Shown here: one piece after another, positions 277 to 28,945 of the stretch
Layout of the letters: each line of letters begins with the position of its first letter
How positions within the stretch are numbered: the first letter of the stretch is position 1
From: Synechococcales cyanobacterium GL140_1_metabinner_5_sub
GTDB taxonomy: Bacteria > Cyanobacteriota > Cyanobacteriia > Cyanobacteriales > Chamaesiphonaceae
Assembly (NCBI GenBank): GCA_025359065.1
Contig: JANYHM010000117.1
Span: 1-32,344 of the forward strand
Direction: 5' to 3'
DNA: 32,344 nt
The notes under the pieces: model-generated
Databases searched by the model: none
What the model was told of the DNA's origin: nothing
The model's input: only the letters and a program-made list of their open reading frames with translations
Position numbers and translations under genes: made by a program

Positions 277-1629
277 CTAATTCTTTTGGATCCCGTGGCA
301 GACCCGGGCGATCGTCACTGGTTTGGCTTTGGTGAGGGTAGAGACTCCCACAGCTAAGCTGTCTAAAAATTCTTTGAGTCCTGCTGTTTTTGCCCCATCA
401 TTTTGGCTGCCATGCCAGCTATCCCATTGACTGGGTGTTTTCAGCGCTACTACCTGAACATCGGTGGTGGCAAAGTAAAGACCATTTTTAAAGCCGTCAG
501 GATTGATATCGATACCCACATCTATTCCCTGGTCTTTGATGGTGTGTTTGGCCTGAAAATCGGCTGATTTGACGGTGGGATCCATCACAAAACTGGTTTG
601 GGTGTCGTCTAACTTTTTCACTGTGGTAGTAGTTTGAGTGACCCAAGAGCTACCTTGATCACCCGATACTTTGCTGCTCAAAGAGTAGTCTAACTTGCTT
701 TTTTCCGCCCGACCACCGAGTTCAATCATCCCGATCGGCTGTCCACCATCTTTGAGAGCTACTCCATTGAATAGTAGTGAAGAAGGAGCCGAGAAACCGC
801 TGGGCATGGCTTTGACATCGCCCTTTAGGTAGGCTACTTCTTCGACGAGGCTGTCGGAGCTGAGCAGCGAAAACTGCTGAGAGCTATCGCTCAGAATGGT
901 GCTGCCCTGGGTACGCATTTGCTTGATAAAATCGTTCAGATGTTCGATTTTGCCGACCATTAGTACATAGAAGGGATGGCCTTTGGCTAGAGTTGTAGCT
1001 TGATATGGGTAGGGTGCGGTGCTGTTAGGGGGATAGATCGAGCCATCAAACTCGCTTTTGAAGCCCCAGATAGCTACCCCGTAACCAGGAATCTTGAGAT
1101 AATTGTCTACTAGTTTTTTGGTAGCTTGCTTAGTGTCTCCGTCATCTTGCTGCAAGTCGGTGACAATCATCACCAACTTTTCGGTTTTGGGAGCGCTAGA
1201 CTCTAAGACATCGGCAATTTTGTTAGTTTTGCCGGTGTAGAATGCCGGGGTTTTGGACTGTTGAAAGCCCGCTCGATCGAGTTTTTTCACGGTTTCATCA
1301 AAACGGAAGTATTCGACCTGCCCCGGGTTCACTAAGCTGATGTTGTCTAAAATTTCTAGGACTTTGCCGTAGCGGGCGCTGCTATTTTTCACAAAACCAG
1401 CCATGGAAGCAGATCCATCGATCGCAAAACTTATCAGGTACTTACCGCCAGAGTTCTCAGCTTTGGCGGCGAGCTGGCAAGGCAATCCTATTTGTTTACC
1501 ACTGACGCTTTTTCCTTCGACGATGCCTACTGCTTCTTGCCCAACAGGCTTACAGCCGTTTAGGACAACTGCTACAACTGTCAAAATTACAAGCTGAGGG
1601 GCAAAGAGGCGGCTGATAATGGGCAGCAT
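277..1629 (-). CDS. vWA-domain lipoprotein
   Basis: A 450-residue exported protein. The N-terminus has a basic residue, a hydrophobic stretch (about 12-23) and a lipobox ending LNGC at Cys26, so it is predicted to be a lipoprotein outside the plasma membrane. A von Willebrand factor A domain follows: the metal-ion-dependent adhesion site is D71-x-S73-x-S75, with a likely Thr135 in a GKTN segment and Asp158 in the IVTD strand. This motif binds a divalent cation and mediates protein-protein contact. The region after about residue 260 is beta-rich by appearance and unassigned. The gene is divergent from the membrane/tubulin-like/actin-like gene set starting at 1752, with 122 bases between them, so it is probably the external component of that system. 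The partner it binds is unknown. Confidence 0.85.
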   Translation of the reverse strand: MLPIISRLFAPQLVILTVVAVVLNGCKPVGQEAVGIVEGKSVSGKQIGLPCQLAAKAENSGGKYLISFAIDGSASMAGFVKNSSARYGKVLEILDNISLVNPGQVEYFRFDETVKKLDRAGFQQSKTPAFYTGKTNKIADVLESSAPKTEKLVMIVTDLQQDDGDTKQATKKLVDNYLKIPGYGVAIWGFKSEFDGSIYPPNSTAPYPYQATTLAKGHPFYVLMVGKIEHLNDFIKQMRTQGSTILSDSSQQFSLLSSDSLVEEVAYLKGDVKAMPSGFSAPSSLLFNGVALKDGGQPIGMIELGGRAEKSKLDYSLSSKVSGDQGSSWVTQTTTTVKKLDDTQTSFVMDPTVKSADFQAKHTIKDQGIDVGIDINPDGFKNGLYFATTDVQVVALKTPSQWDSWHGSQNDGAKTAGLKEFLDSLAVGVSTLTKAKPVTIARVCHGIQKN

Positions 1630-1658
1630 ATTTGAGATGAACTGTACGATTATGATAG

Positions 1659-1664
1659 ATTATA
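1659..1664 (-). promoter_or_regulatory. Candidate -10 element for the vWA gene
   Basis: On the minus strand TATAAT occurs 30 bases before the vWA start codon at 1629. No good -35 hexamer stands 17 bases upstream, so it would have to be a -10-only or activator-dependent promoter. The 122-base gap must also hold the promoter of the divergent gene at 1752, but no convincing consensus is visible for that direction. Confidence 0.35.
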
Positions 1665-1751
1665 GTGTCTGTGAGTTGGGTTTCCCTAAAATTTTTCTCA
1701 TTCAATAAATTAATCATTGAGACAAGCAGTTTTTACTAAAATACCAACAGA

Positions 1752-2240
1752 ATGATTATAACCACCGTTGAAATTATCCGTCTCTTTGTTTTCCCAATCA
1801 TGGGACTGTTGTTGATGTTTGTGCTTCAGCCCGCCCTGTATCAAAGTCAAATTATTCGTTTAACCGATGTGACTGTAGAGAAATGGTTGCCAAATGGTTA
1901 TTATCCCCAAGCTAGCTTGGTGTTTGGCTGTGCTATTTTCGCAGCTTTGGCTTGGTGTGTATGGAATACCATGTCACCGCCCGGTGCCATGTCGGTGCGC
2001 AAGAGCCGATCGATCGCCTGGTGGATTTTGAGCTTGGTGCCGATTTTAGGGGCGGTGGGAGCGACTATTTGGTCACGGAAGGCGGTGTTGGGTGATAAAT
2101 TCGGCAGTGACGTGGCGACGTTATCTTTGGTAGCTTTGTTTAGCTTAGATATTTTGTTTTTGTATTGGTTGACCACAGCTACCACCACGCCAGGAAATGC
2201 GCGAGATTTACCGCCCGGTGCTAGATTGTTCGGTCGCTAA
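1752..2240 (+). CDS. Four-helix integral membrane protein, unknown family
   Basis: A 162-residue hydrophobic protein with four likely transmembrane segments (about residues 8-28, 56-74, 90-107 and 121-142) and a short Pro/Gly/Arg-rich C-terminal tail. Between helices 2 and 3 is a basic loop (VRKSRS), and another basic patch (WSRKAVLGDK) follows helix 3. I do not recognise the family and see no catalytic motif. It is the first gene of a plus-strand set and ends 34 bases before the tubulin-like gene, so it is a reasonable membrane anchor or channel for that system. The start has no obvious Shine-Dalgarno sequence, which is common in cyanobacteria. Confidence 0.75.
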   Translation: MIITTVEIIRLFVFPIMGLLLMFVLQPALYQSQIIRLTDVTVEKWLPNGYYPQASLVFGCAIFAALAWCVWNTMSPPGAMSVRKSRSIAWWILSLVPILGAVGATIWSRKAVLGDKFGSDVATLSLVALFSLDILFLYWLTTATTTPGNARDLPPGARLFGR

Positions 2241-2274
2241 AGTTTAATTAAGTTTACCAGGGAATACTTCTTTC

Positions 2275-3735
2275 ATGTCTAGTAAGTTATTCGTGATTTG
2301 TATTGGTGGTTCGGGGGCTAAGTGCTTCGAGGCGATCACTCAGCTAGCGGCGGCAGGGCTTTACAGCGAGCAGTCGATCGAGGTGCTGTTTGTAGATCCC
2401 GATGAGGCCAATGGCAGTATGGAGCGGGCTAGACGCAGCCTGAATACCTATCAGCAGTGTCAAAAGCTAATGAGCGGTGAGCAGCGGCAGGCCAATGTGT
2501 CTTGGATGCAGACTCCAATTAAGTCTTACGATTTGTGGTCGCCTTTTGCCGATCAGCCTTTTAACCGGGAGCTGTCCAGCTTTTTTCAGTACAACAGCAT
2601 TAAAAATGACAGTCCTAGCTTGGCTAACTTTTTTGACGTGCTGTATAGCCCAGAAGAACGGGTACAGCAGTTAGATGAGGGGTTTAGAGGACGGCCTTCG
2701 ATCGGCGCAGCAGTAATGAGCCAAATCAACCTAAATCAGCTCGATAAAGCTCCTTGGGGCAGCATCATTCAAGAAATTAAGAACGCTACCGGGGGTGGTA
2801 ATAATCCTCGGGTGTTGCTGTGTGGATCGATTTTTGGCGGAACCGGAGCTTCGGGGATTCCGACGATCGCCCGGCTGTTGAGTAACAAGTTTGAGAAAGA
2901 AGGTATTCGCAAGTCGGTGCGTTTAGGTGGTCTGTTTTTACTGCCATATTTTAGTTTTACGGTGCCGCCAGGAGCTAATACCAATGGTATTTATGCTTCG
3001 GCAGACCAATTTTTGCTGAATACAGAAGCGGCGCTACGTTACTATGTAACTCAAGCCAGCAGTTTATTTGACACGGTTTATCTGTTAGGGAATGAAGATA
3101 CGGCCAAGGTGGATTTTAGCGTGGGCAAAAAGACCCAATCAAACCGTCCGCACTTTATTGAGTTATATGCGGCTTTGGCAGCGCGAGATTTTTTGCTGCA
3201 AGATCGTCAGGATGCTTTGATGCTAGTAGCGCGAGCTAGTGGTGGGGTGTTGAATTGGGATGATTTGCCAGATGGCGCTGTGGTGCGACGGGGTTTGGTG
3301 AATGCTGCTCGCACGGCCTATTTGTGGTTAAGTGATATTCAAGGTGAGCTAGAGGCAATCCGCACTAGTCCCGGAAATCTGCCTCCTTGGACGAAGCCTT
3401 TCTATGATGCCAAAGACCCAGTATTTCGGTTAGATGCTGACTCTCAGCAAAATGAGATCAAAATCATCAGTAGCTGGTCGGCAGATTATTTGCGCTGGCT
3501 GCGGGATGTCCATCAGTGTGATACCGACCAGGTACGCTTTTTCAATCACCAGATGTTTAGCACTAAAGAAAAATTAAGCGAATTGGTAATTGATGATCCC
3601 CGTGATCCTAAATCGAAGCAAAGGCAAGATGGTATTCCTTGGATTAAAGAAGAGCTACGCCGCCAAAAAAGCACTGATAATCGACGGGGCGGCGTGGGTT
3701 TAGCCACTTCGTTGTACCTCAATACCAACATTTAG
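2275..3735 (+). CDS. Tubulin/FtsZ-superfamily (Tub_2-like) GTP-binding protein
   Basis: A 486-residue cytoplasmic protein with the two glycine signatures of the tubulin/FtsZ superfamily: an N-terminal GGSGAK loop at residues 11-16 after a hydrophobic strand (VICI), and the tubulin signature GGTGASG at 188-194 after the strand VLLCGSIF. An acidic loop after the second strand (FVDPDEAN, about 39-46) is also typical of the nucleotide pocket. From these motifs it should bind GTP or another NTP and may polymerise. Its length and sequence are unlike cell-division FtsZ; it belongs with the tubulin-like families described from bacterial operons with vWA and membrane proteins. It lies 34 bases after a membrane protein and 44 bases before an actin/Hsp70-like ATPase gene. 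What it moves or shapes is not visible from sequence. Confidence 0.85.
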   Translation: MSSKLFVICIGGSGAKCFEAITQLAAAGLYSEQSIEVLFVDPDEANGSMERARRSLNTYQQCQKLMSGEQRQANVSWMQTPIKSYDLWSPFADQPFNRELSSFFQYNSIKNDSPSLANFFDVLYSPEERVQQLDEGFRGRPSIGAAVMSQINLNQLDKAPWGSIIQEIKNATGGGNNPRVLLCGSIFGGTGASGIPTIARLLSNKFEKEGIRKSVRLGGLFLLPYFSFTVPPGANTNGIYASADQFLLNTEAALRYYVTQASSLFDTVYLLGNEDTAKVDFSVGKKTQSNRPHFIELYAALAARDFLLQDRQDALMLVARASGGVLNWDDLPDGAVVRRGLVNAARTAYLWLSDIQGELEAIRTSPGNLPPWTKPFYDAKDPVFRLDADSQQNEIKIISSWSADYLRWLRDVHQCDTDQVRFFNHQMFSTKEKLSELVIDDPRDPKSKQRQDGIPWIKEELRRQKSTDNRRGGVGLATSLYLNTNI

Positions 3736-3779
3736 TAGTTTGTTTTTCTCCTTAATAGATATTAATTAGGTGTAATTTC

Positions 3780-6700
3780 ATGACTGTGCCAATTTTACCC
3801 AAGCTCAAAACCGATGATTCATCTGTACAGTTGCCCGAAAAAGGGGGTGAGTGGAAGGTCTATCCGAAGGCCACTTTTGAGGATGTGGCTAAAAGTTTAG
3901 ATTACGCTGCACCCGGTGAAAACAAGCGAATTAACTCGGTACCAAATATGTGGGCTTTGCCCATGACGTTGGAAATCCCGATATTTAATAATGTCCATCC
4001 CCTGCGCCAAGATGCGATCGGGCAGTGGCAGGGCATGTTGGCGGCGATCGCTTTTGCTAAAATTCGTAACTTTCCGCTGGTGGTGCAGCGCCTAGATATC
4101 GACGAAGTGCGCCGTCGTCATCCTTTTGCCGAAGCTCTGTGGCAGCTTAAGCCAGACAGTGATAAGAGTCTGTATAAGATTGATAACAAGGAAGCTTGGC
4201 AAGAAATCTATATCTGGACCTGGAACGGTGAGCCGGTGGGGATGACTAGCCCAACGACGATCGTGGTGCCAGCTCCTGAGGGGATCTGGAGTGGTTTGCC
4301 CTGGTGGAATCAGGATAATCGGAAGTTAATGTTTCCTCAGCCTTATTTGAGTGACGAAGAAAAGCCGCTGTTTGGGGGCTGGTTGAGCAATTTGTTGCGG
4401 GAGACTAATAACCCAGAGTATGGTGGTCATCCCCAGACGGTAAATAATGTAGTGGGGTTGCTGGGCAATTTTCAAACCAGCATGGGGCGTAGCGCTGCTG
4501 AGGCAGATATTTTCGATCAAGATTCACCCCAGTATTTTGGAGTAGCGCTGAATCGCGGTGTGCTAAAGGGATTAAATCGCCCGATTAAGCTCAAAGAAAT
4601 TGGTTCTGCTGATTCTTATGTAAAAGTAGTAAACAGCACTAGCAAAACTCCGGCGAAGCCTTTAATTTTGATTGATGCCGAAGTAGCTACAGTATGGGGT
4701 GTTGCTCCCCAAAATATTCGGGTTCACAAGGATAAAACTTTGGCTTCGTTGAATATCGAAGATCTGCGAGCAGGGCGGATTGCGGGCTGGGATGATGTGA
4801 GGTGTATTGAGCCTCGGGATTTGTTTTTGCCAGAGCTGACTTTTATTGATGTAGATGATGCTTTACCCGGTGGCTTTCCAGTGCAGTCCAATCAGCCACT
4901 GCTATTTAATAACAACAAAATTACGCCACTGCTGCCTTTTAATCCGCTGTTGCTGGAGTACTTTACCCCAGAAGATTTAATGGGGCGGGTGCGCTTCATG
5001 CAGAATGGCTCGATGGTGCGGGTGGTGTTGAATTTGCCATTGGCTGGGATGAATGCAGGCCGCCCAGAAGAATATCAGCTAGTGCGGGAATATACTTTAA
5101 ATGAGCAAAATGTGATCGAAGACGTTCCAGTATTAGAGCTATGGCCAAATCTAAAGATTCCGAACTGGCAAGATTACTATGCTTTTTACTTTGATGCTAA
5201 TGATACTTTTAAAGTAAGCTTTGGCGATGCGCAAGAGCCACACACTTATAGCGATCGCAATGGTGACTACATTATTACTCGCCTCAGTAATTTCCCGACC
5301 CATATCAACTGTCAGCGGCGAGGCTGCCCGGTGGGCTTTATTTTACTAAAGACTCCGATCGAGCAGAAGCTGTCTGATACCTGGGTGGTGGGCGTAGATT
5401 TTGGCACTTCGTTTACCAATGTGTATGTGAATCGTAAGGGTAAGGTGGAGCCGCTGAAACTAGAGAATTTGCACCTGAAAATTACGGCGGCTAACGTAGA
5501 AACCCGCCAGCCGGTGTTATTTGAGAGTTTTATTCCCGAGGTGTTTGTGCCCGCTGACAAGCCGCTTCCTTTGGCCAGCGTGCTGACGCGGTTGGGGCAA
5601 ACGGGCAATGAAAAAAAGAAAGTGCTGTACGATGGGCGGATTTATGTGCCCGATCGGATTAACTTTCACCCAGAGTCAAATCATATTGAGACAGACTTGA
5701 AGTGGAAAGATCCTGGCAAGCTAAATCGGTTGTTTTTAGAGCATCTGGGCTTGATGGTGAGTGCTTTGGCTGCCAAGGCCGGAGTGGGCGAAATTCAGTG
5801 GTCGGTGTCTTATCCTTCGGCTTTTTCCCGAGCAGATATTAATGCTTATGCCAAAACTTGGCGAGATTTAACCGAGGAGTTGCAGAAGCGCACGGGTCTG
5901 AAGCATGTTTGCCCAGAACCGGGTGAGAAGTCTTTCCGCACCGAGAGTTTGGCTTTGGCGCAGTATTTTGCCGATCAAGAGGACTGTAACTTGGTGCGCA
6001 GTGCCTGTATCGATTTGGGCGGTGGTACTTCCGATATTTCGATTTGGCAGAACAATAATTTAATTCACCAATGTTCGATTCAGTTGGCTGGTCGCCATTT
6101 GCTGTCGCAGTTTTTAGAGCAGCGCCCGGTGCTAATTGCGCGGTGGTTTAAGCGTCCTACAGAGGAGTGGTCAGATTTAGCAGAGGATAAGTTCAAGGCT
6201 AAGATTGATTCGCTGTTGCGGCATGAGAGTGAGCGGTGGTTGAAGGACGATCGACCGGAGCTAGAAGATGATAAGGATTTTCAGGGGTTGATTCGGTTGA
6301 TGGCGATCGGGACTGCTGGGATCTATTACTATGTAGGGCTGATTTTGGGGACGTTGACTGCCGAGAGTAAGTATACAGAGGGCAAAACGCCTTCGGTATA
6401 TATTGGTGGCAATGGTTCACGACTGTTGCACTGGTTAGATCATGGGGGTGTGTTTACTCGTCGATCGGGCATTAACGAGCTGTTCCGCCGGATGGTCGCA
6501 GATGGTTCTGATCTGCAAGAAACCACCGGTAGTGATACCCAAATTAGTCAGCGTCCGAAGGATGAAGCGGCCTGTGGTTTGGTGCTAGAAAAGAGCAAGC
6601 TGCAAGGTTTGGATCGCAAGGCCAAAGATCCGCTGATTGCGGGGGAAAATTGCCGCATCAATGGCCAAAATGTGGGCTTTGATCAGCGGATGAGTGCCAA

Positions 6701-7013
6701 TGGTGACGATATTACTTCGATCGAAGCGCCTCCTCAACTCGATCGGCTGATTGACTTTATTAATTCTTTTAATGAGGGCATTAAAGATCTGGGCATTGAG
6801 GAAGAAATTAAGCCTTTTAGTCAGTATCGTAAAGGTTCTGGATTAGAAGCTGGTTATGCTGAGGAGCTGTTTGACAAAACTATGACTGAGCTGCGCAGTA
6901 TGTTGATTAATATCAACAATGGCGATGGTGAACAGTTACGGGTAGAGCCGCCGTTTATTTTGGGGCTAAAGGCTCTGATGAAGGTGCTGGCGAGAGAGTG
7001 GGCTGGTAAATAG
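3780..7013 (+). CDS. Large protein with C-terminal actin/Hsp70-type ATPase domain
   Basis: A 1077-residue soluble protein in two parts. Residues 1 to about 530 match no family I know and contain many Trp and Pro residues. The ATPase part starts near 535 and carries the actin/Hsp70/sugar-kinase motifs in order: phosphate-1 loop VDFGTS (Asp540), phosphate-2 loop DLGGGTSD (Asp745) and adenosine motif YIGGNGS (Gly876). It should bind and hydrolyse ATP. The Hsp70 substrate-binding domain is not evident, so it is an actin-like ATPase with its own N-terminal module, not a DnaK chaperone. An AGGTG element precedes the ATG. It sits in the same gene set as the tubulin-like protein, so one operon encodes both an actin-fold and a tubulin-fold NTPase. 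Confidence 0.88.
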   Translation: MTVPILPKLKTDDSSVQLPEKGGEWKVYPKATFEDVAKSLDYAAPGENKRINSVPNMWALPMTLEIPIFNNVHPLRQDAIGQWQGMLAAIAFAKIRNFPLVVQRLDIDEVRRRHPFAEALWQLKPDSDKSLYKIDNKEAWQEIYIWTWNGEPVGMTSPTTIVVPAPEGIWSGLPWWNQDNRKLMFPQPYLSDEEKPLFGGWLSNLLRETNNPEYGGHPQTVNNVVGLLGNFQTSMGRSAAEADIFDQDSPQYFGVALNRGVLKGLNRPIKLKEIGSADSYVKVVNSTSKTPAKPLILIDAEVATVWGVAPQNIRVHKDKTLASLNIEDLRAGRIAGWDDVRCIEPRDLFLPELTFIDVDDALPGGFPVQSNQPLLFNNNKITPLLPFNPLLLEYFTPEDLMGRVRFMQNGSMVRVVLNLPLAGMNAGRPEEYQLVREYTLNEQNVIEDVPVLELWPNLKIPNWQDYYAFYFDANDTFKVSFGDAQEPHTYSDRNGDYIITRLSNFPTHINCQRRGCPVGFILLKTPIEQKLSDTWVVGVDFGTSFTNVYVNRKGKVEPLKLENLHLKITAANVETRQPVLFESFIPEVFVPADKPLPLASVLTRLGQTGNEKKKVLYDGRIYVPDRINFHPESNHIETDLKWKDPGKLNRLFLEHLGLMVSALAAKAGVGEIQWSVSYPSAFSRADINAYAKTWRDLTEELQKRTGLKHVCPEPGEKSFRTESLALAQYFADQEDCNLVRSACIDLGGGTSDISIWQNNNLIHQCSIQLAGRHLLSQFLEQRPVLIARWFKRPTEEWSDLAEDKFKAKIDSLLRHESERWLKDDRPELEDDKDFQGLIRLMAIGTAGIYYYVGLILGTLTAESKYTEGKTPSVYIGGNGSRLLHWLDHGGVFTRRSGINELFRRMVADGSDLQETTGSDTQISQRPKDEAACGLVLEKSKLQGLDRKAKDPLIAGENCRINGQNVGFDQRMSANGDDITSIEAPPQLDRLIDFINSFNEGIKDLGIEEEIKPFSQYRKGSGLEAGYAEELFDKTMTELRSMLININNGDGEQLRVEPPFILGLKALMKVLAREWAGK

Positions 7014-7081
7014 GGTTGAATTTGATTGTGAATCTCTACAATCAGATTTAATTGTTTGGGGTGAACTTTGTTGAGGGTGCC

Positions 7082-8092
7082 ATGAAAAAATGTCCGGTAT
7101 GTAATAGCAGTTCTAATATAGAACAAATACCTTATTGCCGAAAGTGTTGCTGGCCAACTGGCATCGTAGAAGCGATGCCTAAGCATCCAGAATTGTGCCA
7201 AGCTATTCTAGACTGGGCCAGTCAGGCTTACAAAGAAAATCTTCAGCTAAAAAGCAGCACCTCTGCTTCGGCAATGAATGTTGAGCTGCAAGAAACGGTG
7301 AATCTGAATCCGTTGCTAGCTAATTTAAGCGACAGAATAAAGATTTTAGAAGATGGTTATAGTCAGAGGTCTGCTGAAACAAATTCGATGGTGGACATTG
7401 CCAAGATAGTTGAAGATATTCAGGTTATTAAGAAAAAAAATCGAGATATTTTCACTTTTTTAGAACAGCAAAACTTACAAAATCAAAAGCTTGATGATCA
7501 TAAGCAACATAGTGAAAAAGTCTTGGCAGAGTATCAGCGACTATTACAGAGCTTAATCAATGAGCAAAAACGGCAAAGTGAAGAAATTAGACTTATTAAA
7601 TCTTCTCCATCTGCCCGGAATGTTAATCAGTTACTTGCTCCGACAGAGATGAGCAGTCCACTGATGAGCAGTCCGTTGATCAGTAATAATTTGGGTATCG
7701 GCAGTTCTGGCTTAGGAGAATCTGGCTTGATCAGAGAATACAATGTGAGTTCTCAAGAAGTGCCAAAGTCTTTGCGAGATGGTTCTAAGAATGTTTCGAT
7801 CGCCGATGAAGCCATAGCCAGAATTTGGGATGGTAATGTATCTAATATTACTTTCAAGCTTAGTCGCAACGGCAATTTTTTGATTATTTCCCGTGGTGGC
7901 TACTGTTATTTGGTGCCCAATAAACAGCGCAGAATTATTTCTCAGATGTATACATTAGCTCAGGCCCTGTATAAATGTGATGGCTACAGCGAAAATTATA
8001 AAGATTTTCGCTTAGTTAAGCCTGCCTTGGTAACAGAAGAGTCAAGCGACTGTTGGAAACTAAGTCAACAGGGCACTTTAGAATTTATTTAA
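7082..8092 (+). CDS. Zinc-ribbon, coiled-coil protein with a C-terminal domain shared with its neighbour
   Basis: A 336-residue protein. The ATG at 7082 is preferred because GAGGG precedes it; the open frame extends to a TTG at 7052 without such a site. The N-terminus has two Cys pairs, CPVC and CRKC, spaced like a small zinc ribbon. The middle (about 80-180) is rich in Gln, Glu, Lys and Leu and likely a coiled coil. A Ser-rich linker follows with a short duplicated peptide (SSPLMSSPLIS). The last 90 residues (about 246-336) form a domain also found at the end of the next protein: GNF near its start, YLVPN, then RLVKPALV and WKLSQQGTLEF. There is no signal peptide, so it is cytoplasmic. It lies 68 bases after the actin-like gene and 9 bases before the membrane-anchored paralogue. 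Function unknown; probably an adaptor of this system. Confidence 0.8.
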   Translation: MKKCPVCNSSSNIEQIPYCRKCCWPTGIVEAMPKHPELCQAILDWASQAYKENLQLKSSTSASAMNVELQETVNLNPLLANLSDRIKILEDGYSQRSAETNSMVDIAKIVEDIQVIKKKNRDIFTFLEQQNLQNQKLDDHKQHSEKVLAEYQRLLQSLINEQKRQSEEIRLIKSSPSARNVNQLLAPTEMSSPLMSSPLISNNLGIGSSGLGESGLIREYNVSSQEVPKSLRDGSKNVSIADEAIARIWDGNVSNITFKLSRNGNFLIISRGGYCYLVPNKQRRIISQMYTLAQALYKCDGYSENYKDFRLVKPALVTEESSDCWKLSQQGTLEFI

Positions 8093-8101
8093 ACTATTTT
8101 T

Positions 8102-9151
8102 ATGAAAACCAAGCATCTATTTACTCTCTGTGTTCTTTTGGCTTTAACTAGTTCTGGATTGTTACTGACTGATGTGCCTTTGAGTATCGCTCAGTCAAAC
8201 AATTCCAAGCTCAGTAATGCTAAAGACCCCCAAAAATCATCAAATAAGCCTGAGAAAGAGCCTCCGGGAAAAGATTCTCCGGGAGCAGCACCAAAAACTA
8301 TTGAACCAGGCAGCACAGAGACTGATCAGACAAAAACAAATTCTGAGACAGCGCCAAAAGATCCTAAAGGTGATTCTACTTTATCTGGTAATGCTGTTAA
8401 GGGCGCTAGCAAAACCGATGGTGATGATTCATTAACTTCTTTGCTTCTTAGCGGTCTGAGCGGTTTACTACACTTATTAGAGATTGCTGGGTTGGTTTGG
8501 GCTTATTTTAAAATTCAGCAGCTTACTGAGAAAAGCCGTGATGGTAGAAACCAAATTAAGAGTTTAACAGATAGATTAAGTGCTTCTGAACAGAAACAAA
8601 AAACTCAAGGAGATCAGCTAAAATTGATTGGTTCTGAGGCCACCAATGCCCGCAAGCTGACATCTAGGATGAATGCGATCGAACAGGCTGCTCAGCAAAA
8701 ATATAGCGATGTGGGCTATGCTGATCCTGGCTACATACCAAACCCTGAAGCTGCCAAGACTGCTCCCACCCCGTCGGAATATCCGTTTTTGGACACTTAC
8801 CGCCAAAGCTCGGATAACTTCAAGAATAAATATGCGCCCAAGGTTGTTTCAGAAGATGCTGATAATCTCCAGAAACGACGATCTGGCGATTATCAAGAAA
8901 TTATTTTAGGCGAAGATCGTCAGGGTAACTATTGGTTATTCAATGATGGCAGCACTACTTATTTGATTCCTAGCCCTAAATTAAAAGTTAATGACCTAAA
9001 TATCCGCACTGCTGGAGGCTTATTTACCTGTGAAAACTATACTCCAGGCTATCAGCACGTCACCATTGTTCGTCCGGCCATCGTTTCTGCTCAACTGGGA
9101 GGCAGTGAACGCTGGAAACTAGAGCAAAAAGGGGTTCTGGAATTCACCTAA
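8102..9151 (+). CDS. Membrane-anchored coiled-coil protein with the shared C-terminal domain
   Basis: A 349-residue protein. It has a signal peptide (1-30, likely cleaved near SIAQ-S), a disordered external region rich in Pro, Lys, Ser, Thr and Asp (32-110), one transmembrane helix (about 111-137) and a coiled coil (about 138-200). The C-terminal domain (about 256-349) resembles that of the preceding gene: GNYWLF, YLIPS, IVRPAIV and WKLEQKGVLEF. Acidic residues before the helix and Lys/Arg after it favour a cytoplasmic C-terminus. The two related domains of the neighbouring genes would then lie in the same compartment, one soluble and one tethered to the membrane. Start and stop of the two genes are 9 bases apart and a terminator follows, so it is the last gene of the set. 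Function unknown. Confidence 0.8.
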   Translation: MKTKHLFTLCVLLALTSSGLLLTDVPLSIAQSNNSKLSNAKDPQKSSNKPEKEPPGKDSPGAAPKTIEPGSTETDQTKTNSETAPKDPKGDSTLSGNAVKGASKTDGDDSLTSLLLSGLSGLLHLLEIAGLVWAYFKIQQLTEKSRDGRNQIKSLTDRLSASEQKQKTQGDQLKLIGSEATNARKLTSRMNAIEQAAQQKYSDVGYADPGYIPNPEAAKTAPTPSEYPFLDTYRQSSDNFKNKYAPKVVSEDADNLQKRRSGDYQEIILGEDRQGNYWLFNDGSTTYLIPSPKLKVNDLNIRTAGGLFTCENYTPGYQHVTIVRPAIVSAQLGGSERWKLEQKGVLEFT

Positions 9152-9196
9152 AGTTCAAAGCATCATTACTTTCTATTCTGCTGCTAGAAATAGAAG

Positions 9197-9226
9197 ACGG
9201 GTAGCCCTGATGAGTTACCCGTTTTT
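9197..9226 (+). terminator. Intrinsic terminator of the tubulin-like/actin-like gene set
   Basis: ACGGGTA (9197-9203) pairs with TACCCGT (9216-9222) across a 12-base loop and the stem runs into TTTTT. It stands 45 bases after the last stop codon. Confidence 0.75.
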
Positions 9227-9256
9227 GGATGAGACAGAAATCTTGCCCAGAGATTG

Positions 9257-12437: not shown

Positions 12438-15101
12438 CTAATGATCAGCTCGGTAGAGATCTAGTCCTTGCTCAAAAATCTCTTGAATTGATCGCATCTC
12501 ACCATTAATCGTCATGAATTTATGATCGATCGTTGCTTTAATTTTTGATCCATCTTCTAACAAGTACTCTATTACTTCTTGCTGGCCTCGCTGATGCCAT
12601 TGTGTGATCGGCTGAGTATAGACATGACCTTTTTTATCTATGCTAAACACCGAGCACTGTAGTTTTTCTGAGACTATTTTATTGATCGACACTGCTCCAT
12701 ATTCTACTGTCAAAATCTCAGTATCCCCACTCAAGCAATACTCGGCAAACAGCACCATTTGGTCAAACAATTTATCAGCAATTTCTGTAGAAATGCCATT
12801 TTTTGCTGAACCATCTAAGAAATTAGTGCGCTGTTTCTGCATTTCATCGGCTTTCTTTTTCCCCATTGCCCGTCGCAGCAAATCGGCCTGACCCAGCGAA
12901 TAACCCGCCAAATCCTGCGCCATTTTCATGATCTGTTCTTGGTAACATAATGTCCCGTAAGTCTCTTCCAGTATGGGTTTAAGCAATGGATGATCATAGA
13001 CGATTTCTTCCCGGCCATGTTTTCGATCGATGAAGTGTGGAATTAACCCTGCATCCAGAGGCCCTGGACGATACAGCGCCAAAATCGAAGAAATATCTTC
13101 GATACAAGAAGGACGCAGCTTTGATACCACATCCAACATCCCCGATGACTCTAGCTGAAAAACTCCTTCTAGATCGCCTGCACTGACCATTTTGTAAGTT
13201 TTATCCACCATGGGCGGACGTTTTTTGGCACCAGGTTTTCCCTCATTTTTGCGTTGGATAGAAATTGCTCGACGTTCCTCAAAAGTAATTTCATCAGGAT
13301 CAATTACATCTCCTTTATTTTGTAGAATTAGATCTACGGCATTTTGAATAATAGTTAAATTTCTCAGACCCAAAAAGTCCATTTTCAATAGACCTAAAGC
13401 ATCGAGATCTTCCATGTAATACTGCGTGATCACCGAGCCATCATTGTTGCGTTGCAGCGGCACAATCTCATCCAAAGGCTGCGCTGAAATTACCACTCCA
13501 GCCGCGTGAACTCCAAAGGTTTTGTTAGTACCTTCAATCCGCATGGCCATATCAATCCACTGCTTACCCGAGATCGTAATACCGGGCACATTGGTTTCAA
13601 AAGAAGCTGTTTCATAAGCTTGTTTAAACTCGATCGCCGGCGTTTTATCTGAAATCATCACTGCCAATTTGGTGGGCTTACCCCGTACCGTTGGGATATA
13701 TTTCGCCATCTTGTTGGAGTCAGCAAAAGAAATATCTAGCACTCGTGCCACGTCTTTCAACACCGCCTTAGAAGTCATGCGGTTGAAAGTAATAATCTGC
13801 GCTACTCGCTCAGTGCCGTATTTTTGAGTCACATACTGAATCACCTCATCCCGCCGTTCAATGCAAAAATCAGTATCAATATCGGGCATGGATTTACGCT
13901 CGGGGTTCAAGAAGCGCTCAAACACCAGGCCATGATGTACTGGGTCAATATTGGTAATGCGCATGGCGTAAGCTACCAGCGAGCCTGCTGCGGAGCCACG
14001 CCCTGGCCCCACTGGAATGCCTCGATCGCGCGCAAACTTGATGTAGTCCCACACCACCAAAAAATAGGCCGAGAAACCCATCTGCTCGATCATCTTCAGC
14101 TCGTAATCTAGCCGATCGCGATATTCTTGGCTGATGTCTTGAAAGCTTCTGACTTTCTGTAGGGTTTTCAGACCGTTGCGGGCGATTTCTTCTACAAAGG
14201 TAGCCTGAGTATGACCAGGGGGCAGAGGGAAATCGGGAATGCGGGGTTCACCCAACACATTGTATGGCTGAACTTTATCGGCTACTTTGAGGGTGTTGGC
14301 GATCGCCTCGGCAATTACGTCTTCTGGTAAATGATCTCGGAACAGCAGCGCCATTTCTGCGGCAGATTTTAGGTACTCTGTGCCGCTGTAACGCATCCGC
14401 TTGTCTTCGCTGATCAGTGTATTTGTCTGAATACAGAGCAGAGCATCATGGGCTTCTACGTCTTGACAAGAAATAAAGTGAGAATCGTTGGTGGCAATAA
14501 TCTCAATATCTAGTTCTCTGGCAATTCGCACAATCTCGACGTTCACAATCCGGTCTTCCCGCGAGCCGTGATCTTGAATTTCTAGATAAAAATCTTCACC
14601 AAACACTTTTTTGTACCAAGCCGCCGCCTTGCGGGCATAGTCTAAACTTCCCGCCATAATCGCCTGGGGAATTTCACCCCCCAAACAAGCACTAGTCACC
14701 ATCAAGCCTTCTTTGTACTTCTCTAGCACCTCCCGGTTAATGCAGGGACGAGCAAAGATGCCTTTACCCTGAAAGCCTTCTAAGTGGGAGATGGTGGTGA
14801 GCTTAACTAAATTTTTATATCCTTGGGTATTTTTGGCTAATACTACTTGGTGAAACTTCTGGCGGCGCTTTTGCTCTCGATAGTCTCCATCAATCACATA
14901 CATTTCGTTGCCGATGATTGGCTTAATGCCCTTGTTGCGGCAGACTTTGATCAGTTCGATCGCCCCATACATTACGCCGTGATCGGTCAGGGCAATAGCA
15001 GGCATTCCCAAAGCCACCGCTCGATCGGCCAGTTCTGGCAGTTGACTAGCTCCGTCGAGCAGGCTGTAATCACTGTGAATATGTAAGCCAACAAAGGTCA
15101 T
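12438..15101 (-). CDS. dnaE: DNA polymerase III alpha subunit, N-terminal part fused to split intein N-half
   Basis: An 887-residue protein. Residues 1-788 are the N-extein of replicative polymerase III alpha: a PHP domain starting at [11 protein letters not shown], then the polymerase palm with catalytic Asp407 and Asp409 (PDIDTDF) and Asp575 (KMDFLGL). At Cys789 (codon 12735-12737), after FAEY, begins a 99-residue split intein N-fragment, [14 protein letters not shown], with the block B histidine in ATIDHKF. The stop follows directly. The fragment is spliced in trans to a C-terminal DnaE half made from a distant gene, as known for cyanobacterial DnaE. The open frame extends 24 codons upstream to 15173, but the family N-terminus [13 protein letters not shown] fixes the start at 15101. 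The C-half gene is not in this window. Confidence 0.97.
12441..12737 (-). other. Split DnaE intein, N-terminal fragment
   Basis: 99 codons from Cys1 (TGC at 12735-12737) to the His codon before the TAG stop. Block A is [14 protein letters not shown] and block B contains T69-x-x-H72. There is no homing endonuclease domain. By comparison with remembered Npu and Synechocystis DnaE-N inteins it is clearly the same allele, with its own substitutions (for example GD at positions 4-5 and AVSIN at 15-19). Confidence 0.95.
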
Positions 15102-15362
15102 AGAAAGTCCAGAAGTCAAATGCCTACATTTCTTATAGTACCCAAGAACTAAGTCACTTTGCTCTATGTACAAATAATGCGGGTGTTTTCAAGATTAGCA
15201 TCAAGACCTTAAATTGCCATCAAAGAATATTTCGTTAACTGGTATTAATTGATACCATTGGCCGTTGATCACTATGTCAATCCCCAAATCTAGCGTAGAA
15301 GAACCAAGTAAATCCTAAATCGGCACACTATATTCTTTTCGACTATTGAGTTCGATGGAATA
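15102..15362. other. Intergenic region between dnaE and the AAA ATPase gene
   Basis: The gap separates the dnaE start from the stop of the ATPase gene, both on the minus strand, and must hold the dnaE promoter. It is AT-rich. I see no RNA gene, repeat or clear promoter. Confidence 0.5.
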
Positions 15363-16913
15363 CTAGGCTCGAATGACGGTGATTTGCTGTCCAGAGTTGG
15401 TAGTAGCGGCTTCTGTGCTAAGTCGATCAACCAAGAGCGGAGCATTTTGCCGCCGATCGAAGATCACCAACCAGCCACTGCTTTGTTTGAGGCGACTGAG
15501 GTAGCCTTCTAGTTGTTCTAATCCTTTAGCTAGAGGATCGGGGCGACCTGTGCGCCACACTTTCAGTTCAATCCCCAAGATCACGGCTCCATAACTTAAG
15601 CAAAGATCCATCCGATCGCGACCCAAGGCATATTCCCGCTCCAAAGTGCCCCCACCATTCACCACTCGGTGCAAAAAAGCCATCAGCACTAGGTGGGGAG
15701 CAATTTCTGGATAGGAAGCACTTTTTAACAGTGCCTCCCCGTGTTGGAGCCAGAAATCTAGGAAAGCATGAAGTAATCGATCGACATCCAATTCTCCTCC
15801 TGCCGTCAACCAACTTGGCGCAATCTGAGGCAGTGAGGCCATCGGAGTAACGGTGAGCACACGGGGCAGCACCTCGCGATAAATAGGATTAGCGATCGCT
15901 AAGCCACCTTGGGGATCCATGCGGCAAAGTCCCAAGTCTTGCACAAATTGAATATCTTCATTCGGCACATTGCCCAGATCTAAACCTGCTAGCATCGGTT
16001 CAATAATGGCTTTGATTCTATTTTCTCGCAGTCGTTCGGCAAGGCTATCGAGATGGGTATCTTGACGACGAATCAAAATTTCCTTGGCTTCTGCCACCAT
16101 TACTGGAGTGATGTTGATAGTGGGTTCTGGCGCAATTACTGTGGTTAATTGACGAGCTAAGGCGTTGACTAACCATGGTTGACATTGGGTAAGGTCGAAG
16201 GCTAGCTGCACAGCTTCTGGGGTAAAAATTTGTCCAGTATCATCAGTATGTTGTTGATATAAATTTGTTACATCAGCATGACTGAAATTACTCAGTGTCA
16301 AAGATTCAGCTTTGATATTGAAAGGGCTGGAAGTATTGAGTCTGTCACTACCACCAGAAACGACCTTATAGTCCCGCACATCCCGCAGACCAATCAGGCC
16401 GATAGAGACCGGAAAACCCTTAGGGCGATTGAAGTAACCGTCGCGTAACTGGCGCAGGACGGACAAGAGAGTTTGATCTCGCAGGGCATCAATTTCATCG
16501 ATTAGCAAGACTAGGGGCAGAGGAGAAGCTTTTGTCCAGCGTTGCAGGGCGTGGCGGATGCGTTGGCCGGGAGGAGCTTCACCCCAATGGGGCGGTTGCA
16601 GTTCGGGGGGTAAAAAGATTTCGCAGGTGTCTCGCCAAGTAGCAAGGATGGCGGCTTCGGCGCTGCCAATATCTTCAGGAAAAGGAGCACCAATTTCTAC
16701 GGAGAGGACAGCAGAAACATATTGGCCGCTGCGGGTGAGGCGATCGGCGAGGGTAAGGATAGCGGTGGTTTTGCCAATCTGTCTGGGGGCGTGGAGTACA
16801 AAGTAGTTTTCTTGCTGGATCAGGAGATCGATCTGAGGTAGCCGCGCCAGTGGGGGCAGCATGTAATGCTTTTCTGAGCGGCATGGGCCAGCGGTGTTGA
16901 ACCAGCGATTCAT
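15363..16913 (-). CDS. AAA ATPase with C-terminal PD-(D/E)XK-like domain
   Basis: A 516-residue protein. Residues 1-20 form a short lead with CRSEKHYMLPPLARLP, common in AAA-type ATPases of this class. Walker A is HAPRQIGKTT (Lys48) and Walker B is LLIDEID (136-142). A helical middle part with winged-helix-like features covers about 210-360. The C-terminal part (about 420-486) has the layout of a PD-(D/E)XK nuclease fold: Glu426, Asp436 in RMDLCL, the E449-L-K451 motif, then Gln467 and Tyr471. Proteins of this design are widespread and poorly understood, with suggested roles in DNA processing or mobile-element defence. The ATG at 16913 is preferred; the open frame runs to 17090 but the extra 59 codons look non-coding. 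No partner gene is adjacent. Confidence 0.8.
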   Translation of the reverse strand: MNRWFNTAGPCRSEKHYMLPPLARLPQIDLLIQQENYFVLHAPRQIGKTTAILTLADRLTRSGQYVSAVLSVEIGAPFPEDIGSAEAAILATWRDTCEIFLPPELQPPHWGEAPPGQRIRHALQRWTKASPLPLVLLIDEIDALRDQTLLSVLRQLRDGYFNRPKGFPVSIGLIGLRDVRDYKVVSGGSDRLNTSSPFNIKAESLTLSNFSHADVTNLYQQHTDDTGQIFTPEAVQLAFDLTQCQPWLVNALARQLTTVIAPEPTINITPVMVAEAKEILIRRQDTHLDSLAERLRENRIKAIIEPMLAGLDLGNVPNEDIQFVQDLGLCRMDPQGGLAIANPIYREVLPRVLTVTPMASLPQIAPSWLTAGGELDVDRLLHAFLDFWLQHGEALLKSASYPEIAPHLVLMAFLHRVVNGGGTLEREYALGRDRMDLCLSYGAVILGIELKVWRTGRPDPLAKGLEQLEGYLSRLKQSSGWLVIFDRRQNAPLLVDRLSTEAATTNSGQQITVIRA

Positions 16914-17218
16914 TGTGATACCTGAGAAGATAATGTCTGTGGAAGTGATTGGGTTGGTATCGCTGGCTAGCTCTATAGATATCAGGAAAAATGCGGGAGG
17001 CGGTTTCTTTACTATTTTAGTCTTCTTCGCTGCTGTCGTCTTTATTCTTTTCTGGCATAAAATCACCGTCCCGGATACCGCTTTTATCACTCAGATAATA
17101 ATTGCAAACATGAGAGCTTAGATGTGGTATAAGTTAGTATGTTTTCGTGGTGCTTGCAGATCTGATGTTTCCTTTGACAGTTGATAAACTATCCCTCGAA
17201 CTCATGGAGATTTGCTAA
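16914..17218. other. Divergent intergenic region, ATPase gene and first Tic22-like gene
   Basis: 305 bases between two divergent starts. Open frames exist on both strands but look like extensions or shadows. GGAG at about 17203-17206 is a plausible ribosome-binding site for the plus gene at 17219. TTGACA occurs near 17175 but has no matching -10 at normal spacing. Nothing else is recognised. Confidence 0.4.
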
Positions 17219-27180: not shown

Positions 27181-27915
27181 TTAGGCATTGCTATCGCCCC
27201 CTAGCTCTCGTTCAATAATTTCCTTGACAAACTCAGGGATAGCTTTTTCCAGATTGAGTGCTCTTTGCTTTAATGTTTCATAGATTTCAACATCATCTCC
27301 TTCCCATAACAGATCTACTCTCCTAACTTGACGCATTGCAATATGGGCATAGTTTTCTGGGTATGCCCAGTAGCATGATAAGCAAATAGATTTATCTTTA
27401 ACACCACTCCAATTGTCGCAGTGTTCGCAAGACCAAGATTTTGCTCTATTTGCTGAACCGCAAAGTAACATGAAGTTTTCTGGCTCTAAATCTGGTTCGC
27501 CGTCAACTTCAAAAGGAACACGGTGATCGATTTGCAATTCACGTTCACTAACTTCCTCCAGATAAATAAAGCATTTGCATCCGTACTGCCGAATCAATTC
27601 ATCTTTAATTTGTTTTGACAAACCTGTTCTACCAGCAAATCTAGAGAATCTAGCTTTGCTGACATCTCCAAATCTATAAGCAGCTATTTTTCTACCGTCG
27701 CTTCCTGTTACTCGAAAAGTTTCTAGAGGAATGCCATTTTCTCGAACATCTCTAGCAGCCCTTGGAGGATGGTTATAGCCATATGTTTTCTTTAAGTCTT
27801 CAGTAGTAATAAAACCATATTGCAAAATATGATCGATAACCGCTTTTGGTCTTTTTGCGGTCACTGACTGACAAAGTTGCACGAAATCATCGGGTAGCTG
27901 TTGAGAAGTGTCCAT
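27181..27915 (-). CDS. HNH-type restriction endonuclease
   Basis: A 244-residue protein. The N-terminal part (about 20-85) looks like a small helical DNA-binding domain with ITTEDLKKTYGYNHPPRAARD. The HNH nuclease module is ELQIDHRVPFE (Asp130-His131), PENF (Asn147) and SANRAKS (Asn156). Cys113/Cys115 and the pairs C163-x-x-C166 and C178-x-x-C181 could form a structural zinc site. It overlaps the 3' end of the adenine methyltransferase gene by 29 bases, the usual sign of a type II restriction-modification pair in which the methyltransferase is made first. The recognition sequence cannot be read from the protein. No truncation is seen. Confidence 0.85.
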   Translation of the reverse strand: MDTSQQLPDDFVQLCQSVTAKRPKAVIDHILQYGFITTEDLKKTYGYNHPPRAARDVRENGIPLETFRVTGSDGRKIAAYRFGDVSKARFSRFAGRTGLSKQIKDELIRQYGCKCFIYLEEVSERELQIDHRVPFEVDGEPDLEPENFMLLCGSANRAKSWSCEHCDNWSGVKDKSICLSCYWAYPENYAHIAMRQVRRVDLLWEGDDVEIYETLKQRALNLEKAIPEFVKEIIERELGGDSNA

Positions 27916-28825
27916 GCTTTTCTAAGAGAGTCAATTGCTTTGGTGCTTTGATAATATAGCTTGTCAGATCTAAAAATTGTCGGCTTATTAAATTTGGAGA
28001 CAAGTACAAAGACTCTATAGTTGTTTCCTCTCTACCTAGTAGTGTTGACTGTGAAGATCGCCCAACTTCAATTTCGATTCTCTTGAGTTCTAAGCTTTCG
28101 GGTAATACTTGGCCGAAAGTTTTACTGCCTAATCTGCCATCATAACTAATTGCAAATGCTATTCCTTCTTGATTTAGATGCTTAAGAGCTAAAACGAAAT
28201 CTTCAAAGTCAATTCCAGAGAAATATCTTGAATCTTTATTTCCACACACACCTTGATAAGGGGGATCCATATAAACAAAATCATTCTTTTGGACTTTGGT
28301 TAATACCTCCCTATAATCTAAGCATGTAAACTGGCATTTTCCTTTCAGAAGTCTGGACACCCCTTCTATATTTTTTCTCATGGTTGCAGGCTGCGTTCCT
28401 TTTCGTCTTTTGTCAGGGCTTTGATTAAATAAACCTTCAGAATTATAACGAACAGCCCCCTTGACACATCTTGCAAGTAAATATAGAAATAACTTTGGAT
28501 CGTTTGTTTCATTGAATTTTTTTCTGACTTCAAAATAATGACCGATCGAATCAGAATGTTGTTCGCCCCATATATCTGCATATGCGTCTGCTATGTCATC
28601 TGGATTCTCTATAATCAGATTGAACAATTCAATAAGCGGCTTATTTAAATCATTTAACCAAAAATTTCCAGCACTTTGCTCGGCAGCAGTAGCGATACTA
28701 ATTGCCGCAGTTCCAGAGAAAGGCTCCACCAAGCGTCCTACTTGGTTAGGCAGAAATCTGAGAATATGTGCTGCAAGGTTTCGCTTACTACCCTGATATT
28801 GAACTGGATGAGGTAGGTTAGCCAT
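27887..28825 (-). CDS. D12-class DNA N6-adenine methyltransferase
   Basis: A 312-residue enzyme that transfers methyl from S-adenosylmethionine to adenine N6. Motif X is VQYQGSKRNLAAHI near the start, motif I is VEPFSGTAAIS (33-43), and the catalytic DPPY is at 187-190, the order of the alpha (Dam/D12) class. The start is placed at the ATG at 28825, giving MANLPHPVQYQGSK; the open frame extends to 28942 but would then begin inside the psbA terminator. It protects host DNA against the HNH endonuclease encoded by the overlapping downstream gene. The pair sits between the ZnuA-like gene and psbA, so it may be an insertion, although no flanking repeats or integrase were found. Confidence 0.92.
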   Translation of the reverse strand: MANLPHPVQYQGSKRNLAAHILRFLPNQVGRLVEPFSGTAAISIATAAEQSAGNFWLNDLNKPLIELFNLIIENPDDIADAYADIWGEQHSDSIGHYFEVRKKFNETNDPKLFLYLLARCVKGAVRYNSEGLFNQSPDKRRKGTQPATMRKNIEGVSRLLKGKCQFTCLDYREVLTKVQKNDFVYMDPPYQGVCGNKDSRYFSGIDFEDFVLALKHLNQEGIAFAISYDGRLGSKTFGQVLPESLELKRIEIEVGRSSQSTLLGREETTIESLYLSPNLISRQFLDLTSYIIKAPKQLTLLEKHGHFSTATR

Positions 28826-28899
28826 CGTAATAGAAGAACAAATGTGCTTACATGAGTTTACCATGAGATTTAAAATATGTTGCTCAACCATTAGGCAAC

Positions 28900-28921
28900 A
28901 AAAAACCCCTCTCGTGAGGGG
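28900..28921 (-). terminator. psbA terminator
   Basis: On the minus strand CCCCTC pairs with GAGGGG around a four-base loop (28906-28921), followed by TTTTTT (28900-28905), 25 bases after the psbA stop. Confidence 0.9.
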
Positions 28922-28945
28922 ATTCTGTTTATCAGAAGTCAAAAA

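Follow-up and report, generated by a model that had tools for sequence, protein, structure and literature searches.

A tubulin–actin gene set in distant bacteria and on plasmids suggests an unstudied, perhaps defensive, envelope machine

Bacterial tubulin and actin homologues have usually been studied singly, and the best-known cooperating pair is FtsZ and FtsA, in which a tubulin homologue works with an actin homologue at the membrane and FtsA tethers the FtsZ filaments. Here we analyse a candidate for a second pair, encoded in a six-gene locus (genes A to F, positions 277–9151) of Synechococcales cyanobacterium GL140_1_metabinner_5_sub. The stretch analysed as a whole, 32,344 nucleotides of contig JANYHM010000117.1, is called the window. 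It is cyanobacterial, with psbA and a split-intein DnaE gene (both read by eye), and its gene C groups with that of a Chamaesiphon metagenome-assembled genome (tree support 100/100).

Among described systems, FtsZl1 is a protein of ~1000 amino acids with an extended coiled coil and a helical C-terminal domain (Makarova and Koonin, 2010; PMC2875224). The coiled coil of its cyanobacterial members is taken here from that description, and the sections of the article drawn on propose membrane remodelling for the FtsZl1 systems. Predicted membrane-proximal conflict systems are built around a DO-GTPase and GAP1 (Kaur et al., 2020; PMC7159879). In the portions of that article used here, a summary sentence mentions GTPases together with homologs of tubulin and an HSP70 protein, and the detailed section places tubulin and HSP70 in themes that do not overlap, in firmicutes and actinobacteria.

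The tubulin and actin relatives and their co-occurrence

Gene C (2275–3735, plus strand) encodes 486 amino acids with the motifs GGSGAK (T1), DPDEANG (T3) and GGTGASG (T4) and a candidate T7, WDDLP (residues 328–332), loop names that we presume from position. All 25 sequences compared share the T1 and T4 glycines. Its match to Pfam Tubulin_2, 31.4 bits, lies narrowly above the cut-off of 27. Gene D (3780–7013, plus strand; 1077 amino acids) carries the actin/Hsp70 phosphate motifs DFGTSFTN and DLGGGTSD in its second half, and by sequence alone it is weak, reaching 25.0 bits with FtsA against a Pfam cut-off of 31.8. Profile searches of the PDB returned nothing at E ≤ 1 for the C-family alignment and, for that of D, weak FtsA/MreB matches among others (best E 0.016, an FtsA chain), so structure models were needed for both proteins.

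The AlphaFold2 model of C, built from 25 sequences (predicted local distance difference test score, pLDDT, 84.5; predicted template modelling score, pTM, 0.89), superposes within residues 1–348 on CetZ1 (Z 16.3, root-mean-square deviation, rmsd, 3.2 over 205 residues) and on FtsZ (Z 16.1, rmsd 4.1 over 218 residues). Foldseek with this model mixed FtsZ with Rossmann dehydrogenases at similar E values; after structural re-alignment of its list, all 50 matches shown were tubulin, FtsZ or CetZ. The last ~150 residues are mostly helical in the model, with no long coil. The W-x-D-[LI]-P motif at 328–332 is invariant in 15 cyanobacterial C sequences and sits between helices 294–308 and 334–364, where FtsZ carries its catalytic T7 loop; by this position it is a candidate for the T7 loop of C, with D330 as the candidate acid. 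Gene C is thus predicted to have the tubulin/FtsZ GTPase fold.

The model of D, from 29 sequences (pLDDT 85.9, pTM 0.74), places residues ~532–949 on MreB (Z 20.5, rmsd 3.4 over 280), DnaK (Z 19.2) and FtsA (Z 18.6), with MreB, FtsA and DnaK structures ranging over Z 17–20. Across the 29 sequences, which range from cyanobacteria to Bacteroidota, residues D540, F541, G542 and T543, D745, G747 and G748, and G877 do not vary, so that the predicted fold is accompanied by the phosphate-1, phosphate-2 and adenosine motifs of the actin/Hsp70 superfamily. The modelled actin/MreB/Hsp70-type ATPase domain follows ~530 N-terminal residues, of which ~400–530 are beta-rich in the full-length model, and precedes a largely helical end of ~130 residues. 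An earlier sequence-only reading had recognised both proteins from their GGTGASG and phosphate motifs, and the models agree with it.

The two families travel together. In a survey of 386 genomes drawn evenly from the cyanobacterial phylum, C was found in 25 and D in 28, the latter including one match in G023 (53 amino acids, E 1.8e-4) that was set aside as MreB background. D accompanies C in all 25 of its genomes and is credible in two (G291 and G092) of the 361 that lack C (Fisher p 3e-37 for these counts). The sequence-only reading had staked itself on conserved co-occurrence and on tubulin and actin folds, and the survey and the predicted folds bear it out on both. A separate set of 60 relatives was searched with C, which 17 of them carry, the window's own genome included. 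Among 48 non-duplicate cyanobacterial loci with full-length C, some of whose absences are contig ends, D of at least 700 amino acids lies within 6 kb in 43, a figure biased upward because 23 loci (L043–L071) were found through D and 10 (L124–L142) were picked from C and D match lists. A vWA gene lies within 6 kb in 39, and in 45 the tubulin gene has a B-family gene on its own strand no more than 400 nt away. Since the loci L043–L074 were found through D, they do not test co-occurrence; the 386-genome and 60-relative sets do, and in them the tubulin–actin pair is conserved as a unit. In the same-genus genome G001, C and D are 98% and 97% identical to those of the window, and the vWA gene and the gene for the four-transmembrane protein are absent at that place.

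Variants of D were also seen. Loci L046, L051 and L059 have a second D-family protein of ~730 amino acids inside the adaptor cluster, and similar second matches in the 386-genome survey align mainly to the actin half. Loci L049 and L125 have three extra open reading frames (ORFs; 603, 321 and 404 amino acids) between the tubulin gene and an enlarged D ORF of 1353 amino acids.

Gene C is found on five cyanobacterial plasmids as well (one of Gloeothece, three of Picosynechococcus and one of Synechococcus NIES-970). Picosynechococcus sp. PCC 8807, 73109 and 7003 have the operon on a plasmid, and the PCC 8807 versions of C and D are WP_065717573 and WP_083993596. The three plasmid records inspected have A, B, C, D and two to four ORFs with the adaptor domain described below, in that order (by profiles; D 1029–1493 bits), annotated as 'tubulin-like doman-containing protein' (Gloeothece C), 'TM2 domain-containing' (one adaptor) or otherwise as hypothetical or unknown. 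Copies in Microcystis aeruginosa and M. viridis stand on separate starred branches of the tree, which together with the patchy distribution fits horizontal movement. Actin and tubulin homologues drive plasmid segregation elsewhere, so a TubZ- or ParM-like DNA-partition system that stabilises plasmids or islands might be read from the five plasmid-borne copies. We consider this highly improbable, as at least nine genomes hold the locus on a contig of 3.6–6.4 Mb, ParA/ParB are already encoded by the Gloeothece plasmid, and the partners are membrane proteins and lipoproteins, with no centromere-binding candidate seen among them.

Envelope partners and exchangeable adaptors

The six ORFs were found at exactly the positions that the sequence-only reading gave, the sole change being a likelier start of gene E. 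That reading had called the genes contiguous, which holds for B to F, closely packed on the plus strand and separated by 34, 44, 68 (from D to the ATG at 7082) and 9 nt. Gene A (277–1629, minus strand) is divergent and therefore lies outside the B–F transcript. A G+C-rich hairpin with a U-tail at about 9196–9226 on the plus strand (RNA fold, z −2.5 for 9150–9235) is the probable terminator of the B–F operon, and a simple consensus terminator scan did not list it.

Gene A encodes a vWA-type lipoprotein of 450 amino acids, recognised from a lipobox-like LNGC and from DGSAS at residue 71, which resembles a metal-ion-dependent adhesion site; its Pfam VWA match is sub-threshold (12.1 bits, E 0.22). 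A loose lipobox pattern is present in 44 and DxSxS in 28 of 48 A-family ORFs of at least 380 amino acids, a few of them from duplicate contigs. Gene B (1752–2240, plus strand) encodes a small membrane protein of 162 amino acids with four hydrophobic segments. Gene E (7082–8092, plus strand) more likely begins at the ATG at 7082 than at the TTG at 7052 where its ORF opens, and combines a zinc-ribbon-like start containing two CxxC pairs with a coil and a C-terminal domain. Gene F (8102–9151, plus strand) is predicted from its signal-peptide-like start and one further hydrophobic segment to comprise a signal peptide, a Pro/Ser-rich extracytoplasmic stretch, a transmembrane helix, a coil and the C-terminal domain of E. 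By alignment this is the same domain of ~80 amino acids in both proteins (7853–8086 in E, 8903–9145 in F). For the membrane and lipoprotein components and the pairing of E with F as adaptors, the sequence-only reading holds.

Proteins with the shared domain number 0–6 per D locus, most often three, the zeros including contig ends. Classed solely by CxxC and hydropathy, 22 of 121 are of the E type (two CxxC near the N-terminus) and 35 of the F type (signal-peptide-like start and a later hydrophobic segment). WD40 repeats occur in five of 92 proteins scanned, 90 of which bear the domain, and the Pfam matches of the coils, of coil type, fall short of the cut-off. Loci L055 and L124 have the domain fused in one ORF with a truncated actin-like protein, natural fusions that tie it to D.

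Four further copies of the domain lie elsewhere in the window's genome. In one of them (L147, 376–2130, minus strand) it occurs with an FGE-sulfatase domain (181.9 bits); the consulted portions of Kaur et al. (2020; PMC7159879) count formylglycine-sulfatase (FGS) domains as effectors. In relative G001 a 338-amino-acid ORF unrelated to the core stands among the adaptor genes (L027, 16896–17912, plus strand).

Another reading is a chaperone-like or secretion-related role, in which D would be an Hsp70-type ATPase acting on clients from zinc-ribbon or C-terminal-domain proteins, and C a nucleotide-sensing platform rather than a filament. Such a role would suit the cysteine pairs of E-type proteins, the association of the shared domain with WD40 and FGE-sulfatase domains, and the ranking of DnaK and BiP near MreB by structure (Z 17–19). 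It nonetheless appears improbable to us: MreB and FtsA fit D about equally well or better, the six proteins include no DnaJ- or GrpE-like gene product, and no substrate-binding domain was recognised after the ATPase domain of D, for which no separate search was made.

We compared nonsynonymous (dN) and synonymous (dS) substitution rates in eight related locus pairs, with L053 used twice, partners taken as best matches with orthology unchecked, and adaptor pairs below 28% identity dropped. In 20 of 21 comparisons the adaptors have a higher dN than the tubulin, about 2- to 38-fold, and in seven of seven the vWA protein does too. Between the window and G001, dN is 0.009 for C and 0.013 for D against 0.137 for E and 0.220 for F. 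In L064/L130, dS is 0.02–0.07 in the core and 0.42 in an adaptor, so this adaptor gene was probably replaced by recombination. The downstream genes are an exchangeable module, new here, and these data suit a mobile system with variable recognition parts.

Relatives in Bacteroidota and a possible role at the envelope

Among the best 80 of 264 matches, a scan of GTDB contigs with D showed 32 cyanobacterial loci with D-family genes, and distant family members in three loci of Bacteroidota. A strong D match is present in 6 of 296 Bacteroidota genomes; the best matches in the other 279 of 285 genomes reported were rejected as short background (E 2e-9 or weaker). All nine distinct Bacteroidota loci (eight genomes) have vWA, tubulin and then D in the same order, one of them cut by a contig end inside D, and in eight of the nine a protein with three or four hydrophobic segments is encoded between vWA and tubulin. 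This is the four-gene core of the cyanobacterial loci. Four IMG/VR contigs, two of them near-identical, have vWA-like, transmembrane, tubulin and D-like ORFs in order, with weak scores apart from tubulin in L183. D was unmatched in 50,697 phage records. A partial D-like ORF was also seen in a Lachnospiraceae locus (L075), with no tubulin within 7.3 kb.

In the eight uncut Bacteroidota loci, a family of proteins with a signal peptide and transmembrane segment follows D, directly or past one ORF, and in four of these loci MotA/ZorA-like and MotB/ZorB-like genes come after it. The L077 pair reaches 34.9 bits with ZorA2 and 42.6 bits with ZorB1 of PADLOC, and its MotB-like protein passes Pfam OmpA (27.7 against a cut-off of 27.2), while its MotA-like protein narrowly fails MotA_ExbB (22.5 against 22.9). 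The ZorB-like protein of the Bacteroidota version has an aspartate in its transmembrane segment (TDLM). A weaker ZorA/ZorB-like pair (20.5 and 22.5 bits) occurs in cyanobacterial locus L040, and L136 has a homologous pair.

We tentatively favour an envelope-spanning switch, driven by nucleoside triphosphates, that works by assembly and uses exchangeable adaptors. At the envelope, a ligand or disturbance would be sensed through the vWA lipoprotein and F's extracytoplasmic stretch, and the four-transmembrane protein B and the transmembrane helix of F would relay the signal to the cytoplasmic face. There the tubulin relative with GTP and the actin relative with ATP might polymerise, form a complex and co-assemble on the membrane, much as FtsA tethers FtsZ filaments. 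Assembly could then gather or release the proteins with the shared C-terminal domain (E and F here, WD40 or soluble versions elsewhere), which would act in recognition or output and be exchangeable; a ZorA/ZorB-like ion-driven motor may fill the output position in those Bacteroidota that carry the pair, four of the eight uncut loci. The likeliest purpose would be a response to invasion or to envelope attack or damage, and we infer, as the sequence-only reading did, that the locus may encode a force-generating or surveillance device. The more specific proposal is possible but doubtful: a hitherto undescribed machine for immunity or envelope surveillance, whose private tubulin and actin would co-assemble on the membrane, controlled by a lipoprotein sensor, and whose outputs would be interchangeable, namely fast-evolving adaptors for cyanobacteria and, for some Bacteroidota, an ion-driven motor of the ZorAB type. 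The consulted part of the Zorya article contains the suggestion that phage pushing on or damaging peptidoglycan is what the motor responds to (PMC11890865), and for this reason we lean towards envelope surveillance.

A dedicated cytoskeletal or membrane-remodelling apparatus (for shape, vesicles or a polar structure), whose filaments would bend or organise the membrane with the coil proteins as tethers and spacers, is rather unlikely. The tubulin and actin folds, the membrane and lipoprotein partners, the strong purifying selection on the core and the coil-rich adaptors would all suit it. For morphogenetic machinery, however, presence in 25 of 386 genomes, carriage on plasmids, the decayed tubulin gene of G040 and fast-changing adaptors are unusual.

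Several results weigh against the switch that we favour and its possible defensive role. The six proteins gave no convincing PADLOC family (best E 0.0048, a coil match to JetC) and no nuclease or toxin domain above the Pfam cut-off, and we found no experiment on any part in the open-licence literature searched. PADLOC shows no ZorA/ZorB-like genes among the six proteins of the window locus, the rest of the genome not having been searched, and elsewhere the ZorA-like proteins miss the MotA_ExbB cut-off of 22.9 bits, at 22.5 just under and at 14.3 well under. D adjoins C in 14 of the 17 relatives, not in all: in G035 D is on another contig, in G046 C lies near transposase-like ORFs (by eye) with no D within the 14 kb read, and in G040 the tubulin gene is broken. 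The candidate T7 acid of C is not retained in both aligned Bacteroidota proteins. Coils and linkers drift fast anyway, so adaptor divergence is no proof of an arms race; the one exception, not fast, is the adaptor with WD40 in L047/L049, and gene B of the L064/L130 pair reaches a high dN/dS as well (2.9 over 160 codons). The core dN/dS of 0.01–0.02 in the window's pair, very strong purifying selection, would suit a housekeeping machine too, and the flanks read by eye look mostly like housekeeping genes.

A flank test drew on 10 genomes, several of them close relatives of one another, and covered 150 of 157 flanking proteins (less the seven of L209) and 131 of 138 control proteins (less, to match, the seven of L229); control L218 was wholly masked and contributed none. 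At E ≤ 1e-15, 237 PADLOC models matched in flanks and 29 in controls; among the 25 matches listed for each, the flank list is filled by redundant PD-T4-6 kinase models matching three proteins, so proteins cannot be counted from it, and at face value the figures would lean to a defence reading. A motif check of the flank and control sets showed no reverse-transcriptase motif in the flanks.

Other ORFs of the window were read by eye. The ORF at 12438–15173 (minus strand) is the N-terminal half of DnaE ending in an apparent split intein, the usual cyanobacterial arrangement. An AAA-ATPase-like ORF at 15363–17090 (minus strand) belongs to a multicopy family, its DNA matching eight longer places in G001 at 65–75% identity. 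An HNH-type ORF adjoins a D12-like adenine methylase ORF at 27181–28942 (minus strand), a possible restriction-modification pair, beside psbA at 28946–30028. A repeat of ~140 bp at 1–141 is found again at the ends, or close to the ends, of six further contigs (C110, C87, C86, C120, C114 and C75); an insertion element or other repeat probably interrupted the assembly there.

Comparison with described systems

We found no paper describing this gene set in the open-licence literature searched, although the unnamed associated families A1–A2 and B1–B9 of PMC2875224 may include gene D or the ZorB-like protein. As in the FtsZl1/vWA operons of that article, an FtsZ-like GTPase stands here beside a vWA protein and membrane proteins, and the OmpA-family partner of FtsZl1 resembles the OmpA-domain ZorB-like protein of the Bacteroidota loci. 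The sequence-only reading had taken the locus for a cyanobacterial version of that system with an actin added, which we do not sustain. Tubulin_2 matches occur in 75 of the 386 cyanobacterial genomes, 19 of which, by comparison of lists, are C-family genomes. Their C-family pieces score 19–35 bits (up to 39 with neighbours) in frames of ~490–530 amino acids, whereas in the other 56 genomes the best piece scores 85–382 bits, mostly in frames of ~1050–1170 amino acids. D is in none of those 56 apart from the G023 background match, and nine genomes hold both kinds of Tubulin_2 protein at separate places. From the low scores, the short frames and the absence of D from the 56, gene C is a distinct family and not FtsZl1, and D goes with C; the strong cyanobacterial proteins are a different family of ~1100 amino acids, mostly in other genomes. 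The actin-like partner is standard in the Bacteroidota loci seen and therefore is no cyanobacterial add-on.

In further contrast to FtsZl1, C lacks an extended coiled coil, and Pfam finds among the six proteins neither the kinase nor the P-loop GTPase of the FtsZl1 systems in the consulted text. A large actin-fold ATPase is the constant partner here, and word searches of the main text of PMC2875224 show none that is actin-like. Nor does C match FtsZl2, to which the same text gives a mixed alpha/beta C-terminal region of ~300 amino acids and no conserved neighbours, as C has a mostly helical C-terminus of half that length and strong gene linkage. The DO-GTPase/GAP1 systems, in the portions of PMC7159879 used, also employ tubulins, vWA domains, zinc ribbons or HSP70; unlike in their themes, tubulin and actin/HSP70 occur together at the window locus. 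DO-GTPase and GAP1 are absent from the Pfam matches of the six proteins at E ≤ 1 (further neighbours were read by eye only), the Pfam set used including other models of that article's set, such as fvmX7.

The likeness to Zorya lies in the ZorA/ZorB-like pair beside the core in half of the uncut Bacteroidota loci and in L040 and L136. Unlike Zorya, the window locus lacks the pair, the L077 proteins scanned match none of ZorC, ZorD and ZorE, and the scores range from moderate to weak. The swapping of output modules, a Zorya-like motor among them, provides a testable link of orphan cytoskeletal proteins to envelope signalling or immunity.

Compared with FtsZ and FtsA, the pair described here belongs to other families, D falling below the FtsA cut-offs of both Pfam and NCBIfam; its actin partner has a large N-terminal extension, no division genes adjoin it (neighbours read by eye) and its distribution is sporadic. 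Culturable strains, through the Picosynechococcus and Gloeothece plasmids, offer a case for asking why the two folds are paired. A second pair, standing apart from division genes, passed on as one unit in different phyla and borne on plasmids, would mean that joint recruitment of both folds has happened more than once.

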